This document shows, piece by piece, positions 51,564 to 57,709 of a stretch of DNA of 64,000 nucleotides. The position numbers were made by a program, and so were the translations under genes. The stretch's first letter is position 1. Every line of letters starts with the position of its first letter. The notes beneath the pieces were generated by a model. That model saw only the letters and a list, made by a program, of their open reading frames with translations, searched no databases and was not told the DNA's origin. The stretch comes from Pseudoalteromonas gelatinilytica (GTDB taxonomy: Bacteria; Pseudomonadota; Gammaproteobacteria; Enterobacterales; Alteromonadaceae): assembly GCF_001641615.1 (NCBI RefSeq), contig NZ_LRRU01000016.1, positions 62,001 to 126,000 of the forward strand, given 5' to 3'.

Positions 51564-52082
51564 TCATTGATTCTCACGCCATTGCGCTTGACCAGAGCCA
51601 AGTTCATGTAATACACGATCAGTTCTATTTCTTCCCGAGGGCGCATTGGATAGCCAAACGTTAATTTCGCCTGTCTCGCTCATTCCTATTATTAAATAAG
51701 GTATGATTTCTTTTGCTTTGCGCCCAGTGCTCACAACGGTGTATCTAGGTAAGTTTTTAGCTAATTTATATCCCGCTTTATCTATGGCCACTTCACCGTA
51801 ATAAATTCTATTTTCTGATTTATCGAGCCATTCAATCGCCACTTTTTCGGGGAACTTTTGGTCGTACAAACTGACTGTACCGCCAGCCTCAGCATAACAA
51901 CACTCAACTGCCCCTGATGGTATGCCCCATGTATCATCAAATACCACTGAGCGCCCCCAAATAGCATTTCCACTCTCAGTGCCTACGCCTGCTACCATGT
52001 AATCTATTTTTCCCGTTGACGAGCAACCAGCTATGAGCAAAGCACATGCAATTGAGATGAGTGGTTTTATAAACTTATCCAT
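51564..52082 (-). CDS. DUF2931-like lipoprotein 5 (probable Tle1 immunity paralogue, distal copy)
   Basis: 172 residues. The N-terminus MDKFIKPLISIACALLIAGC has the lipobox IAGC with lipidated Cys20 and Ser at +2, which favours the outer membrane. The first variable block (about 31-62) is the VGTESGNAIWGRS type shared with the gene at 53150; the second variable block (about 89-118, RYTVVSTGRKAKEIIPY) is found only here. Conserved middle segment: SENRIYYGEVAIDKAGYKLAK; conserved end: LHELGSGQAQWREN. It lies 9 bases after the next copy and is the most divergent 3'-end type. Predicted to protect the cell against the phospholipase encoded at 54169-55881; this is inference from position and family. 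Confidence 0.8.
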   Translation of the reverse strand: MDKFIKPLISIACALLIAGCSSTGKIDYMVAGVGTESGNAIWGRSVVFDDTWGIPSGAVECCYAEAGGTVSLYDQKFPEKVAIEWLDKSENRIYYGEVAIDKAGYKLAKNLPRYTVVSTGRKAKEIIPYLIIGMSETGEINVWLSNAPSGRNRTDRVLHELGSGQAQWRENQ

Positions 52083-52091
52083 AGTCGGTTT

Positions 52092-52604
52092 TTATTTATT
52101 CTCGCGCCATTGCGCTTGCCCAGAGCCAAGTTCATGTAATACACGGCCTGTGAATCCTGCTGAAGGTGTATTTGATATCCACACTTTTATTTCACCTGTC
52201 TCACCCATGCCAATAATTAGGTAGGGAAAAATCTCGTCCTCAACTTCACCTGTGTAATAACTAAAATTAGGTAAGTTTTTAGCTAATTTATACCCCACCT
52301 TATCTATGGCCACTTCACCGTAGTAAATTCTATTTTCTGATTTATCGAGCCACTCAACTACCACTTTTTCTGGGAATTTTTGGTCGTATACACCACTTGT
52401 TTTGCCTGCACTTTCCCAACAACAACCGAGGCTTCCCATAGGAACCCCCCAACTATCATCAAAAGTAATTGCCTGCACCCAAATTTGGTTACCTTTTTGT
52501 GTCGCACCTCCTGCAACCATGTAATCTATTTTTCCCGTTGACGAGCAACCGGCTAAAAACAAAGCACATACAATTGAGATGAGTGGTTTTATAAACTTGT
52601 CCAT
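52092..52604 (-). CDS. DUF2931-like lipoprotein 4 (chimeric immunity paralogue)
   Basis: 170 residues with the same lipoprotein leader (LAGC, Cys20). The first variable block (GATQKGNQIWVQA ... CCWESAGKTSG) is identical to that of the gene at 52614; the second (NFSYYTGEVEDEIFPY) is identical to that of the gene at 53672. The DNA shows the switch between base 52323 (GTAG as in 53672) and 52353 (CACTC as in 52614). This is a natural hybrid of two neighbours, formed by recombination in the conserved ENRIYYGEVAIDK segment. Probably co-expressed with the phospholipase. Confidence 0.8.
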   Translation of the reverse strand: MDKFIKPLISIVCALFLAGCSSTGKIDYMVAGGATQKGNQIWVQAITFDDSWGVPMGSLGCCWESAGKTSGVYDQKFPEKVVVEWLDKSENRIYYGEVAIDKVGYKLAKNLPNFSYYTGEVEDEIFPYLIIGMGETGEIKVWISNTPSAGFTGRVLHELGSGQAQWRENK

Positions 52605-52613
52605 AGTCGGTTT

Positions 52614-53132
52614 TTATTTATTCTCGCGCCATTGCGCTTGCCCAGAGCCAAGTTCATGTAATACACGACCAACCCTATTCATTTCTGAGCTTGTATTTGA
52701 TAACCAAACCTTAATCTCGCCAGTTTCTCCCATACCAATAATCAAGTAAGGGGTTATATTTGTTTCTATCTCTCCTGTGCTTACCCATGTATAAGCAGGT
52801 AAGGTTTTAGCTAATTTATACCCAGCCTTATCTATGGCTACTTCACCGTAATAAATTCTATTTTCTGATTTATCGAGCCACTCAACTACCACTTTTTCTG
52901 GGAATTTTTGGTCGTATACACCACTTGTTTTGCCTGCACTTTCCCAACAACAACCGAGGCTTCCCATAGGAACCCCCCAACTATCATCAAAAGTAATTGC
53001 CTGCACCCAAATTTGGTTACCTTTTTGTGTCGCACCTCCTGCAACCATGTAATCTATTTTTCCCGTTGACGAACAACCGGCCAAAAACAAAGCACATGCA
53101 ATTGAGATGAGTGGTTTTATAAACTTGTCCAT
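52614..53132 (-). CDS. DUF2931-like lipoprotein 3 (immunity paralogue)
   Basis: 172 residues, start at the ATG at 53132 to match the shared MDKFIKPLISIA leader; an ATG five codons earlier is not used by the other copies. The first variable block equals that of the chimeric neighbour; the second (AYTWVSTGEIETNITPY ... SEMNRVGRV) is its own. Long DNA tracts are identical to the neighbour at 52331-52604. Only 9 bases separate the two genes, and the gap keeps frame, with no clear ribosome site. Confidence 0.8.
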   Translation of the reverse strand: MDKFIKPLISIACALFLAGCSSTGKIDYMVAGGATQKGNQIWVQAITFDDSWGVPMGSLGCCWESAGKTSGVYDQKFPEKVVVEWLDKSENRIYYGEVAIDKAGYKLAKTLPAYTWVSTGEIETNITPYLIIGMGETGEIKVWLSNTSSEMNRVGRVLHELGSGQAQWRENK

Positions 53133-53149
53133 AGTAACTAAATGCATTT

Positions 53150-53662
53150 TTAATTATTCTCGCGCCATTGCGCTTGCCCTGAGCCAAGTTCATGTAATAC
53201 ACGGCCTGTGAACCCTGCTGAAGGTGTATTTGATATCCACACTTTTATTTCACCGGTCTCACCCATACCAATAATTAAATAAGGTTTTACATCGTTAAAA
53301 ACTTTACCTGTGTGCGCAGTGAATGGGGGTAAGTTTTTAGCTAATTTATATCCCGCCTTATCTATGGCCACTTCACCGTAATAAATTCTATTTTCTGATT
53401 TATCGAGCCATTCAACCGCCACTTTTTCCGGGAATTTTTGGTCGTACAAACTGACTGTACCACCAGCCTCAGCATAACAACACTCAATTGCTCCTGATGG
53501 TATGCCCCATGTATCATCAAATACCACTGAGCGCCCCCAAATAGCATTCCCATTCTCAGTGCCTACGCCTGCTACCATGTAATCTATTTTTCCCGTTGAC
53601 GAGCAACCGGCTAAAAACAAAGCACATGCAATTGAGATGAGTGGTTTTATAAACTTGTCCAT
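53150..53662 (-). CDS. DUF2931-like lipoprotein 2 (immunity paralogue)
   Basis: 170 residues. The first variable block (VGTENGNAIWGRS ... CCYAEAGGTVS) is nearly the same as in the distal copy at 51564. The second block (PFTAHTGKVFNDVKPY) is unique, while the end (SNTPSAGFTGRV) is shared with the copies at 52092 and 53672. This again shows shuffling of blocks between paralogues. Lipobox LAGC, Cys20. Confidence 0.8.
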   Translation of the reverse strand: MDKFIKPLISIACALFLAGCSSTGKIDYMVAGVGTENGNAIWGRSVVFDDTWGIPSGAIECCYAEAGGTVSLYDQKFPEKVAVEWLDKSENRIYYGEVAIDKAGYKLAKNLPPFTAHTGKVFNDVKPYLIIGMGETGEIKVWISNTPSAGFTGRVLHELGSGQAQWRENN

Positions 53663-53671
53663 AGTCGGTTT

Positions 53672-54184
53672 TTATTTATTCTCGCGCCATTGCGCTTGCC
53701 CAGAGCCAAGTTCATGTAATACACGGCCTGTGAATCCTGCTGAAGGTGTATTTGATATCCACACTTTTATTTCACCTGTCTCACCCATGCCAATAATTAG
53801 GTAGGGAAAAATCTCGTCCTCAACTTCACCTGTGTAATAACTAAAATTAGGTAAGTTTTTAGCTAATTTATACCCCACCTTATCTATGGCCACTTCACCG
53901 TAGTAAATTCTATTTTCTGATTTATCGAGCCATTCAACTTCAACTTTTTCCGGGAATTTTTGCTCATAAACTCCGGCCATTGCACCTGCCGTAGCTCGGC
54001 AACACGACATTGCACCTGCAGGGACACTCCACCGCTCATCAAATTTTACTAATGTAGCAAAAATATCATTACCTTCATCAGTTGAGCCAGATACGACCAT
54101 ATAATCTATTTTTCCCGTTGACGAGCAACCGGCTAAAAACAAAGCATATACAATTGAGATGAGTGGTTTTATAAACTTGTCCAT
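53672..54184 (-). CDS. DUF2931-like lipoprotein 1 (immunity paralogue next to the effector)
   Basis: 170 residues. The ATG at 54184 gives the shared MDKFIKP leader and overlaps the phospholipase stop by 16 bases, so it is translated together with the effector. The first variable block (SGSTDEGNDIFATLVKFDERW ... CCRATAGAMAG) is unique to this copy; the second (NFSYYTGEVEDEIFPY) recurs exactly in the copy at 52092. As the copy coupled to the effector, it is the best candidate for the cognate immunity protein. Confidence 0.82.
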   Translation of the reverse strand: MDKFIKPLISIVYALFLAGCSSTGKIDYMVVSGSTDEGNDIFATLVKFDERWSVPAGAMSCCRATAGAMAGVYEQKFPEKVEVEWLDKSENRIYYGEVAIDKVGYKLAKNLPNFSYYTGEVEDEIFPYLIIGMGETGEIKVWISNTPSAGFTGRVLHELGSGQAQWRENK

Positions 54185-55881
54185 AGTCGGTATCCATTTA
54201 TTAGTTGTGATTGCCATTGTGAGCTTGTTTCAGCTTGACTTGGCTGGTTATAAAAAAGCTCGCGCTGTTGGTTTTTGGTGGTAAATTCTGCTTCTTCTTC
54301 GGGGCCGTGAGCTATCGCATCAATCGTTGCCGCGTATTTAACACTATGGTGAATGTAGTCTTTGTATAAAGCATGCCAGGCATCACTTTGCGGGCCAAAA
54401 CTGCGCGCTGTATCTACAAGCGATTTAAGCTCGCTTGGTAAAACATAAGGAAAAGCCTGACCATCGGCTTGCTTGCGGTTGGCAAGCTCTGCTAGGTTTT
54501 GCAACGGCACCCCTTGATTTACAGCCGTTTCGTGCATTAGCGCTAAACTATAATGCGGTAGAATATTACTTAATTTACGGCGCCAATACGGCCTGTAGCT
54601 GGTGTAAATTGTATTTTCTGATTTATTCCAAATTCGCTTTGGTTGTCGGTTTATTCTTGGCCGGCTTGCTTTAAATTGAATATTAATTGTTGGCCAATAA
54701 TATTTTTGTTCAAGTGACTGTTTAAGCTGTACGAGTTCTTTGTCGTGCTCTGGCTCACCGGCTTGGCCCGCAATATACTGCCGAGGGTAAAGAATGCTCG
54801 TTTCAACGGGGCCATAACCGCCACCTATATCTGAGTGCACGCCAGGCAGCTCAATTTCTTTGTGGTTTTCTGATAGCTGCTTATTACTATTGAGTAATGA
54901 GCTAAGAGGGAATTTATCGCGCTTTTCATCAAACGCAGCTAAGTGCATCACATACCCGGCACTGCTGCTCGCTAAATTTAAATTAACGGGGTAGTCAAGT
55001 TCGTCATCGGCGTAAAACTCACTGTGGTTGTTATCGCCATCGCCGCCAATAGATGCAACACTATCAAATAAGCCCACAAAACGAATAACAGGCTTAATGC
55101 CGCCCCAATAATTTGGCTTATGTTGATAAATTGCATTGACCTGATTAACAAACGCTCGGGCTTGGGCTGCACCTCGGCTAAAGCCAAATACATCAATTAA
55201 AGCGATGCTAATGTGCTCAAAATTACTGTTCCTTATAAAACGGTTCAATGATATTAAAGATTTTTTTATGCGCTCATCAAAACTAAACGCCAAGCCCATA
55301 TCTAGTGTTGAGTCTTTTTTATTCGCTTTAGTGCCTATCCCTTCGGCATAATACCGAGATTTATAGGTTTGAAATGGATATAACTCAAACAACTTAACAA
55401 CATTCGTGGGCTCTTTGCTGTCTGTTGAGTCTTGTATGTCGTTAAAACGGTTATTACCTGTGCCATCAAAAAACACCCCAAAGCAAGGCGGTTCGGCAAG
55501 TAAGGTGAGTTCTACATGGCCTTTCGGTAAAATTTTATGTTGAAGTAGTTGCGGGCCGCCCTTACTACCAATATTGAATGACTTTACCATGTTTGAATTA
55601 AAATAGTCTGCAAATTGCTGCTCATTAACAAGAGTAAACTCGGCCTTACCAGCAACAATTGCTTTGAGTGTATAAGGTGTATCTTGCGACAGGTTATTAA
55701 AACGGTAGTGCTGCGCTGCTTGTTTTTCAACTACGACCTTGTTGCCTTGTGAAAATAGCTGTATTTCTACATCAACATCGCCCAGTACTTTTACAATAAT
55801 ATGCTTTGTTGTTGCACCCGCACCGGTATTAATAACAAGTGTATTAACAAGGTTTACTGCCATTGGCATTGCTTGGCTCAT
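54169..55881 (-). CDS. Tle1-type phospholipase (DUF2235), probable type VI secretion effector
   Basis: A 570-residue alpha/beta hydrolase. An N-terminal beta-rich region (about 1-125) precedes the DUF2235 domain: CFGVFFDGTGNNRFND at 133-148, the lipase nucleophile Ser235 in VFGFSRGAAQARAF, GLFDSVASIGG at 270-280, and the acid residue Asp351 in HSDIGGGYGP. Family members are antibacterial phospholipases of the Tle1 group, delivered into the periplasm of rivals. No signal peptide is present, as usual for such effectors. Neighbours upstream are LysM/peptidoglycan-binding proteins; downstream are five lipoproteins of immunity type. No vgrG, hcp or paar gene lies in the window. Confidence 0.85.
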   Translation of the reverse strand: MSQAMPMAVNLVNTLVINTGAGATTKHIIVKVLGDVDVEIQLFSQGNKVVVEKQAAQHYRFNNLSQDTPYTLKAIVAGKAEFTLVNEQQFADYFNSNMVKSFNIGSKGGPQLLQHKILPKGHVELTLLAEPPCFGVFFDGTGNNRFNDIQDSTDSKEPTNVVKLFELYPFQTYKSRYYAEGIGTKANKKDSTLDMGLAFSFDERIKKSLISLNRFIRNSNFEHISIALIDVFGFSRGAAQARAFVNQVNAIYQHKPNYWGGIKPVIRFVGLFDSVASIGGDGDNNHSEFYADDELDYPVNLNLASSSAGYVMHLAAFDEKRDKFPLSSLLNSNKQLSENHKEIELPGVHSDIGGGYGPVETSILYPRQYIAGQAGEPEHDKELVQLKQSLEQKYYWPTINIQFKASRPRINRQPKRIWNKSENTIYTSYRPYWRRKLSNILPHYSLALMHETAVNQGVPLQNLAELANRKQADGQAFPYVLPSELKSLVDTARSFGPQSDAWHALYKDYIHHSVKYAATIDAIAHGPEEEAEFTTKNQQRELFYNQPSQAETSSQWQSQLINGYRLWTSL

Positions 55882-55884
55882 TAC

Positions 55885-56541
55885 TTATGCTCCGTATACG
55901 TCAACAAGACGACGTTTAGTAATAGGCCCTGCTATGCCATCAACTTGCAACTGCTGTGCAAGCTGAAAAGCTTTAACACCTGTTTGTGTTTTTGATCCAT
56001 TAATTCCATCAACCTTCCCACAATCAAACCCAAGTAAATTGCAACGCCCTTGCACTCCTGACAAGGTTTCAATAGGGTCTAAGTGCCCAACTTGAATAGC
56101 AAAACTCTTTGTTGGTGTGGTGTCTTCGTCATTGAGATATAAATCTACTTGCCCTGTAAGCGTTTCATTTTCGGTGAGCTCTACTTCAATTAAGCCATCT
56201 TCTGCTATGACGGTATCAATTGTTTGCCCTGCGATATTCAGTACAATGCGCTTTCCCGTAATTTGCTCGCCATTTTCGTAAGCTAGTTTTAAACGAAAGA
56301 ATTCTTTTTCATCACGCACCATAAAAGAGTTTTTACTACCTGTTTTCAGTGGCATGAATTTTTCAACTTTTGCTGGAATAGCAATTACGTCGCCGGGGTA
56401 AATTTGGTTAGGTTCAGGCCTTAATGAACGAAACTCAGCATTAAGCGGATGCAAGTAAAGACCATTAGAGGTTCTAAACCCATATTGACGAGCAATGCGT
56501 AGCAAGGTTTCGCCTTGCGACACAGTATGTTGTAAGGTCAT
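55885..56541 (-). CDS. LysM and peptidoglycan-binding domain protein
   Basis: 218 residues: an N-terminal LysM (about 3-50, HTVSQGETLLRIARQYG ... GDVIAIPA), a middle beta-rich segment, and a C-terminal peptidoglycan-binding domain of the PG_binding_1 type (about 150-216, CGKVDGINGSKTQTGVKAFQLAQQLQVDGIAGPITKRRL). No signal peptide, so it may be carried with the effector or act at the secretion apparatus. It ends 3 bases before the phospholipase gene, implying one operon. Confidence 0.85.
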   Translation of the reverse strand: MTLQHTVSQGETLLRIARQYGFRTSNGLYLHPLNAEFRSLRPEPNQIYPGDVIAIPAKVEKFMPLKTGSKNSFMVRDEKEFFRLKLAYENGEQITGKRIVLNIAGQTIDTVIAEDGLIEVELTENETLTGQVDLYLNDEDTTPTKSFAIQVGHLDPIETLSGVQGRCNLLGFDCGKVDGINGSKTQTGVKAFQLAQQLQVDGIAGPITKRRLVDVYGA

Positions 56542-56560
56542 AAATTATATCCTTATAAAT

Positions 56561-57709
56561 TTATTCATTACGGGAAGGGCTGGCCACCTGCCAGTCTTTG
56601 TCATCTAACTCATGAAAACTTATTTTAGCATTTTCAAAGTCAGGACCTGATACGTGGGCATAACCCTTACTATCTAATACTCCACTGACTACATGCCCAT
56701 TACGCAAGCGAATTTTATAGCCCATGTTTGCCTGTGGGTTACCTGCTTGATCAAGCAATTCAATTTCATATTCTTGTGTTGGTTGAAGCACTGTAAAAGA
56801 GGTGGTTTCCACAAGACCTGACGCACTCACAGTGACAGCATAAACACCTGGCTTCACAACAAAATAATGCTGCCAAAACGATATTTCATCTGGGCGCTTT
56901 TTTTCTAATTGCAATGTAATTTGACCATTTGTAGGCCCTTGCCAAACTATATCTATACTGCGGCAATTACTGCAGGAGCCTTCTATATTTAATTTCCAAC
57001 CATTGGGAACTATCAATCCAGTACCTACCGGTGCGGGCTTAGCACGACTAAACCCCAAATTGTAATCATAAATAAGGTTCGCATTTTTATAGCCTGTATA
57101 TTGTTGAGCTAACATTTCTACCGTTTCAGATGCTTGGAGCACATGGGTTGTAAAATTTTGCCGAACTTGGTGAGATGCTTTTAACTCTACCTTACTATTT
57201 GCAACAGGCTTATAAAGAGCTAACGTAGGTTGAAATTGCTGAGTTGCTGTTGGGCGGATAACACGACGAGTATAAGTTATGTGTTGATCTATCCTGTTGG
57301 GTTGTCCCTCACAGCCATTGCTTTGTAATAGCCTAGCTTGTTGATCTCTTAAATCAGCTGATGTTGCATTGCTAGCAGCCTCTGAGCTATGGTTCTTTGA
57401 AATAGTGGCGCTTTTTGGGTATAGCGCAATTCGGCTATAGACATGGCGAAACTGACTGTAGGGAACTCGCTTCCAACCATTTTGGTTAATCCAAAACTGG
57501 CAGCGTTTGTCATCTCGAAATTGTGAGACCTGATGAGCGTCTAATACGCCAAACAAGTTATCTTGAATTTTCTTTTGCACATGTTTCGGTAACGAGTATA
57601 ACAAACTGCGGCTCAGCTCCCGAAAGCTTGGGCTGTTTTTTACCGTTGTTTCTTCACTCTGTTCTAAAAAATGGGCATGAGTATCATTCACCGGATCCTT
57701 GGTGAGCAT
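56561..57709 (-). CDS. LysM-like protein, first gene of the Tle1 operon
   Basis: 382 residues without a signal peptide. The N-terminal 120 residues are unusual and charged (LLYSLPKHVQKKIQDNLFGVLDAHQVSQFRDDKRCQFWINQNGWKRVPYSQF). A LysM-like segment (about 190-235, HVLQASETVEMLAQQYTGYKNANLIYDYN ... GLIVPNGW) lies in the middle. The C-terminal 100 residues form beta strands (ITLQLEKKRPDEISFWQHYFVVKPGVYAVTVSASG, YEIELLDQAGNPQANMGYKIRLRNGHVVSGVLDSKGYA) like the carboxypeptidase-regulatory or Ig-like parts of effector adaptors. It probably helps deliver the phospholipase; this is inference from context. Confidence 0.7.
   Translation of the reverse strand: MLTKDPVNDTHAHFLEQSEETTVKNSPSFRELSRSLLYSLPKHVQKKIQDNLFGVLDAHQVSQFRDDKRCQFWINQNGWKRVPYSQFRHVYSRIALYPKSATISKNHSSEAASNATSADLRDQQARLLQSNGCEGQPNRIDQHITYTRRVIRPTATQQFQPTLALYKPVANSKVELKASHQVRQNFTTHVLQASETVEMLAQQYTGYKNANLIYDYNLGFSRAKPAPVGTGLIVPNGWKLNIEGSCSNCRSIDIVWQGPTNGQITLQLEKKRPDEISFWQHYFVVKPGVYAVTVSASGLVETTSFTVLQPTQEYEIELLDQAGNPQANMGYKIRLRNGHVVSGVLDSKGYAHVSGPDFENAKISFHELDDKDWQVASPSRNE

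Follow-up and report, generated by a model that had tools for sequence, protein, structure and literature searches.

Gene B, one of five tandem immunity-type genes in the window (the whole 64,000-nucleotide stretch of Pseudoalteromonas gelatinilytica DNA analyzed), is a mosaic of sequences shared with two neighboring copies. The two variable modules of such genes covary, one by one, with two hypervariable patches on the adjacent Tle1-like effector. We consider it probable that the modules form a two-key recognition code, which would be reshuffled by recombination in a conserved core, with other combinations being kept in the array.

Immunity genes and the adjacent effector

The five genes, A to E, encode lipoproteins of 170-172 aa on the minus strand (Table 1). 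All five proteins carry a signal peptide with a LAGC or IAGC lipobox. Gene A matched PF11153 (DUF2931) with 22.3 bits against a cut-off of 22.2, and with 21.8 bits, just under the cut-off, in a whole-genome search. The scores of B (19.4) and C (21.4) were both under the cut-off, and the profile search did not reveal a match for D or E. The best reading of these sequences is an array of T6SS immunity lipoprotein genes behind a Tle1-like toxin gene, with neutralization as their putative function. The AF2 model of immunity protein E (pLDDT 90.9) consists mainly of beta strands, and aa 62-68 and 110-127 are mainly loops. A sequence search for solved relatives of the immunity protein yielded five weak matches, none below E 0.06, and Foldseek with the model yielded no match at E <= 0.001. 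The best VIA-align hit, 4jde (Z 9.1, rmsd 2.7, 110 aligned), was read as a common beta arrangement and was not retained as a relative.

The gene at 54169-55881 is assigned by sequence and model to a Tle1-like T6SS phospholipase effector, the secretion and phospholipase activity of which are predicted. The effector matched PF09994 at E 5.1e-26 (92.1 bits against a cut-off of 27), and its GFSRG motif, of the GxSxG nucleophile type, is invariant across a 50-row effector alignment. Foldseek with its AF2 model gave 6sjl/6ski (EAEC Tle1-VgrG) as the best matches (6sjl, E 1.3e-21, TMq 0.48). The genome of the window encodes the T6SS sheath protein VipA (E 2.2e-49). VgrG was not matched among the 8 proteins that were profile-scanned. 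Two genes upstream of the effector (55885-57709, minus strand) are also present in P. lipolytica and in G034. One encodes a LysM and a peptidoglycan-binding domain, and the other encodes a 382-aa protein without a Pfam match. In the other groups, the effector has approximately 120 additional N-terminal residues, and on visual inspection this extension appears similar to part of the 382-aa protein.

Table 1. Positions of the array genes, their parts, and the effector gene in the window
Feature	Position	Strand	Basis or remark
Immunity gene A; modules N-alpha/C3	51564..52082	-	PF11153 marginal, module comparison
Immunity gene B, reported hybrid; N-beta/C1	52092..52604	-	Module comparison; PF11153 under cut-off
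Breakpoint interval common to B, C, and E, inside conserved core	52324..52352	-	Identity tracts, C/E site pattern
Second switch in B, at the 5' end of the tract, beside signal-peptide region	52521..52545	-	C/E site pattern
Immunity gene C; N-beta/C2; upstream ATG at 53147 also open	52614..53132	-	PF11153 under cut-off
Immunity gene D; N-alpha with a C variant of its own	53150..53662	-	Module comparison
Immunity gene E, toxin-adjacent; N-gamma/C1	53672..54184	-	Overlaps effector stop by 16 nt; AF2 pLDDT 90.9
E, second recognition module (putative), aa 110-156	53717..53857	-	Tracks patch 2, r 0.86
E, first recognition loop (putative; CC loop), aa 62-74	53963..54001	-	Tracks patch 1, r 0.85
Tle1-like phospholipase effector (predicted), 570 aa, GFSRG	54169..55881	-	PF09994; AF2 pLDDT 86.5; Foldseek 6sjl/6ski
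Effector hypervariable patch 2 (p2), aa 205-228; helix and loop before nucleophile strand	55198..55269	-	Within-group divergence peak
Effector hypervariable patch 1 (p1), aa 168-180; loop plus strand preceding EGIGT	55342..55380	-	Within-group divergence peak

Distribution in the genus

Eighteen of the 108 genomes of the genus hold the effector at E 5.4e-143 or better (identity at least 42%), and the genomes with a match to immunity gene B are the same 18. These carriers form three groups (5, 5, and 8 genomes) with 1-6 immunity genes each, some of which are damaged. A limited set of N and C modules, combined in different ways, makes up the genes of all three groups. Protein alignments excluded the frameshifted G058_2frag, and short fragments in G031, G045, G071, and G104 were left out of the gene set because they were too short or broken. 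A sample of 395 genomes across the family contained four close homologues at E <= 1e-60, two of which came from other genera; these two genera contained no further members (one of seven and one of one genomes).

VipA was detected in 17 of the 18 carriers of a close effector versus 36 of the 90 other genomes of the genus (Fisher p 1.4e-5). P. shioyasakiensis JCM 18891 (G055) was the sole carrier without a VipA match. The VipA matches of the other carriers all lie at approximately 1e-48 to 1e-50, lower than those of the other VipA classes of the genus. This uniform class suggests delivery by one T6SS subtype.

Mosaic structure of gene B

A preliminary description of this locus had placed a recombination breakpoint in B between 52323 and 52353, and had reported identity of B with the copy at 53672 (E) over more than 100 bases and with the copy at 52614 (C) over approximately 250 bases. 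Comparisons within the window bore this out: B is identical to E over 275 bp (52078-52352 = 53658-53932) and to C over 221 bp (52324-52544 = 52852-53072). The two identity tracts overlap at 52324-52352, and these 29 bases are the breakpoint interval. C and E differ at 128 sites, at which B follows, from 5' to 3', E at one, C at one, E at two, C at 70, and E at 54. Runs this few (five or fewer) were obtained in none of 100,000 label shuffles. The main switch leads from the C type at 52353 to the E type at 52323, and a second one lies between 52545 (E type) and 52521 (C type). The identity tracts and site runs support the earlier view of a crossover or conversion within the conserved segment of an immunity-type gene. 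However, the second switch indicates that the C-like part of B (approximately 170-220 bp) is a bounded tract with two ends rather than half of a simple crossover, and the join reported previously is one of these ends. Given this second switch and flanks that do not follow C, we rejected the possibility that B arose from C and E by a simple unequal crossover.

The first module of B is 100% identical to that of C and its second module is 100% identical to that of E, whereas the P. lipolytica counterpart of B shows 99% in each module. This difference points to a recent exchange inside this genome, in either direction. B had been regarded as the hybrid and the genes at 53672 and 52614 as its parents. 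The mosaic is real; however, its polarity is doubtful and may be reversed because the combination of the supposed hybrid, N-beta/C1, is that of the toxin-adjacent gene of P. lipolytica UCD-48B (G058), with 13 nt differences and 98% identity at the amino acid level. Its presence in P. lipolytica also does not support B as the newest gene. A comparison with sister strains had been proposed as a means to find both parents without the hybrid. The module combination of C was found in P. shioyasakiensis, that of B itself occurs in P. lipolytica, and that of E was seen, among five close genomes, in this genome only. The P. lipolytica counterparts of A and D are damaged. In the P. lipolytica array (L065 9998-10874), the middle gene is broken by an internal deletion, and the third gene contains 25 N and lacks several second-module residues.

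Two hypervariable patches on the effector

The 40 most divergent 11-aa windows of the effector (mean of 48 within-group pairs) are all located at aa 168-180 or 205-229, against a mean divergence per window of 0.088. In the AF2 model, patch 1 lies in a loop and the strand 174-179, and patch 2 lies in the helix 201-218 and the loop before the nucleophile strand 226-234. In alpha/beta hydrolases, loops before parallel strands sit on the edge opposite the active site. If this rule holds here, both patches face away from the pocket. This would be in line with the model of the P. aeruginosa Tle1-Tli1a complex, in which the pocket stays open, although this Tli1a belongs to DUF3304 (available part of PMC13133936).

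The two patches change separately and reciprocally with the N and C modules. Between the effectors of the window and P. lipolytica, 29 of 72 nt differ in the p1 region (aa 168-190), 4 of 84 in the p2 region (aa 203-230), and 46 of 1560 elsewhere; in the adjacent immunity genes, the N module is changed and C1 is kept. Between G073 and P. shioyasakiensis, the corresponding differences are 2/72, 34/84, and 60/1560, and here the N module is kept and the C module is changed.

Covariation of patches and modules

The patches and modules were first spotted by eye in group 1 and scanned afterwards, and the sample comprises 18 genomes in three groups of one genus. Using within-group distances at the 18 loci, p1 tracked the CC loop (aa 62-74), which follows the CC pair, with r 0.85, and p2 tracked the C module (aa 110-156) with r 0.86. 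The partial values were 0.84 and 0.83, and the cross partials were 0.31 (p1 with C) and -0.01 (p2 with CC). Neither covariation was matched in 20,000 within-group permutations (0/20,000). The best 9-residue windows of the immunity protein were at aa 67 for p1 (0.91) and at aa 117 for p2 (0.80), with a scan-wide 0/5,000 each. After the removal of near-identical genomes (14 loci), the scan-wide counts were 83/5000 for p1 and 14/5000 for p2, and the p2 maximum moved to aa 147.

The values in group 1 were p1~CC 0.88, p1~C -0.02, p2~CC -0.05, and p2~C 0.92. Those in group 2 were 0.50, -0.42, -0.26, and 0.86, in the same order, and those in group 3 were 0.94, 0.81, 0.56, and 0.85, the cross terms of group 3 speaking against separate pairing. 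Immunity aa 25-60 tracked p1 at just 0.36. This first half of the N module (54005-54112 in E) is variable, and in group 1 it is swapped along with the CC loop. Patch 1 is exactly the same in G104 and G025, and their CC loops differ (0.69 identity). A leave-one-out choice of the toxin-adjacent gene, based on the other genomes, was right in 11 of 14 arrays versus 5.5 expected; it picked the wrong gene in G104, G025, and the window. This test left out four arrays of one gene, including that of P. lipolytica, which was counted as such because its other genes are damaged. In the second immunity gene of G033 (L078), GG replaces the CC pair that all other scored Pseudoalteromonas copies share, and this distal gene is perhaps a decaying copy.

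The breakpoint reported in the preliminary description is real, but the blocks being swapped are not arbitrary: each is apparently a recognition module for a separate toxin patch.

Distal array genes

Using an identity threshold of 0.85, which was chosen after the module combinations had been seen, 11 of 28 scored distal genes match the toxin-adjacent gene of another species in both modules, and 27 match such a gene in at least one. These 28 remain after the exclusion of G058_3, G031_2, G031_4, G104_4, and G071b_1, which have gaps or N in a module. One distal gene, G030_2, matches the toxin-adjacent gene of its own genome. Among the window genes, both modules of B match P. lipolytica, and D matches none.

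Loci outside the genus

At least 80 Tle1 loci were listed, with at least 45 outside Pseudoalteromonas having an adjacent immunity gene among the matches listed. We tested 28 loci in six effector-similarity groups of our choice (Stutzerimonas, Pseudomonas, Billgrantia and relatives, and Marinobacter); 17 of the 45 belong to none of the six groups and were left out. With the rest of the catalytic domain controlled, p1 and p2 were tracked best in these 28 loci by immunity windows at aa 68 and aa 123, respectively, near the positions in the genus. With regions taken from the Pseudoalteromonas loci (the second module being aa 110-130 here and aa 110-156 in the genus test), a correlation test run after the window scan of the same loci gave 0.62 for p1~CC (105/20,000) and 0.45 for p2~C (34/20,000). 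When three near-identical loci were removed (25 left), p1~CC held at 0.64 (80/20,000), whereas p2~C dropped to 0.17 (4,230/20,000). Therefore, patch 1 replicates outside the genus, whereas patch 2 does not do so robustly. The effectors outside the genus are also very variable near aa 85-95, 248-250, and 464-478. With some reserve, we lean towards a combinatorial two-site code for Tle1 and DUF2931-type lipoproteins in Gammaproteobacteria. In such a code, two toxin patches that can be swapped separately would each be read by one immunity module, recombination in the conserved core would yield new matching specificities in one step, and an array would be a library of module pairs against the toxins of relatives.

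Alternative explanations

Similar adjacent paralogues may exchange tracts by plain concerted evolution and leave a mosaic that has no functional meaning. The 275- and 221-bp identical tracts in one genome fit this explanation, and recombination of tandem immunity genes is documented in the T7SS (PMC9484751, in the part available). However, it does not predict patch-by-patch concerted changes across species in the variable blocks of another gene, the effector, and we regard it as improbable. The patches and adjacent modules may otherwise have been transferred together on the same DNA and covary without recognition. The effector gene and gene E share 16 nt, and effector aa 401-570 tracks the signal peptide (0.69), core (0.61), and tail (0.60) of the immunity protein. 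Effector aa 183-202, which separate the two patches, also gave 0.79 with the CC loop, almost like p1, and 0.52 with the second loop; these residues may belong to patch 1. In contrast, effector aa 237-570, the 1 kb that separates patch 2 from the immunity gene, gave only 0.14-0.35 with the CC loop and the second loop (aa 110-130). Moreover, the patches do not pair with the loops by proximity: p1 goes with the first loop and p2 with the second. This pairing is not explained by linkage alone, and we regard such hitchhiking as very improbable.

In the sequential displacement described for Vibrio (PMC5361080, in the part available), whole genes arrive with a new toxin and are left behind, without intragenic shuffling. 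In G034 (L068 9099-9176), 26 C-terminal effector residues (81% identical) lie between the two immunity genes and look like what is left of a toxin that was either displaced or duplicated. In the window, the 7 nt that stand before the immunity ATG within the last codons of the effector (ACCGACT) are retained at A, B, and D, as if units had moved together with the 3' end of the effector; the longer remnant occurs in G034 and not in the window. However, displacement alone cannot give the E/C/E pattern of B or the same modules re-combined across genomes. As the only process it is unlikely, but it probably acts alongside recombination. Finally, short-read misassembly may have made the hybrid: the source genome is a 23-contig draft, the array holds the exact repeats of 275 and 221 bp, and N are present in the P. 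lipolytica array. However, the two sites of the main switch (52323 and 52353) are 30 bp apart, such that a k-mer of 31 or more across both would require a real hybrid molecule. The same module combination occurs, with the 13 nt differences, in the independent assembly of P. lipolytica, and re-paired modules occur in all three genome groups. We regard misassembly as extremely improbable.

A proposed two-key model

We prefer recognition by two keys. The immunity lipoprotein has a conserved core flanked by two variable modules. Each module may recognize, presumably by physical binding, one of the hypervariable patches in the catalytic domain of the toxin. Protection would require the fit of both modules, as two keys to one lock. 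New toxin variants may arise by the replacement of one patch at a time, and matching immunity may then be obtained by one-step recombination via the conserved core, which re-pairs existing modules; the breakpoint in B would be such a join, whichever way the exchanges ran and in whatever order. Genes that fit earlier or foreign toxins would be retained downstream and may protect against sister strains.

It is a long-standing question how a toxin-antidote pair can acquire a new specificity without passing through a suicidal intermediate. If the two keys are separable, one patch may change and one existing module may be re-paired by ordinary recombination. The model, if true, also makes exact predictions of which array gene protects against the toxin of which species, and cross-immunity may perhaps be readable from sequence.

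Comparison with known systems

A literature search did not find a description of two immunity modules that each match one of two toxin patches. In V. cholerae, T6SS immunity genes are likewise retained downstream after toxin replacement, and immunity arrays and breakpoints within immunity genes have been described in Vibrio (PMC5361080). However, the available part of that paper attributes the arrays to the displacement of entire genes by foreign modules, argues against duplication, and presents no two-module code. PefE of Proteus mirabilis is also a T6SS immunity protein with modular variable regions, and chimeras were used to locate its specificity (PMC5714391). It differs in having five variable regions, a predicted propeller, and one mapped specificity element, without a one-to-one match to two toxin patches in the portion of the paper available (PMC5714391).

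A Tle1 phospholipase gene followed by DUF2931 genes is also found in Aeromonas hydrophila and V. cholerae (PMC7245790; PMC13133936). In A. hydrophila, in contrast to the recognition proposed here, both DUF2931 genes are needed together, and their number varies from zero to three across strains (PMC7245790). The available text of these two sources describes no recombination or patch matching at Tle1-DUF2931 loci (PMC7245790; PMC13133936). Two immunity proteins of V. cholerae that are 80% identical are unlike in protection (as cited in the available part of PMC13133936).

The esaG genes of S. aureus and the tipC genes of Streptococcus form strings of non-identical immunity paralogues, in which variable regions lie between conserved homology blocks and recombination via these blocks yields mosaic genes (PMC9484751). 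The present array likewise consists of tandem paralogues with conserved blocks and contains a mosaic gene. However, esaG and tipC act against Gram-positive T7SS toxins, whereas the partner here is Tle1-like and encoded in a VipA-positive genome. Furthermore, toxin specificity of the variable regions is speculated on in the part of PMC9484751 available, without matched toxin patches. Recombining tandem immunity genes are known from these T7SS loci, and what appears to be new in the present array, as judged against the literature searched, is the matching of two modules with two toxin patches.
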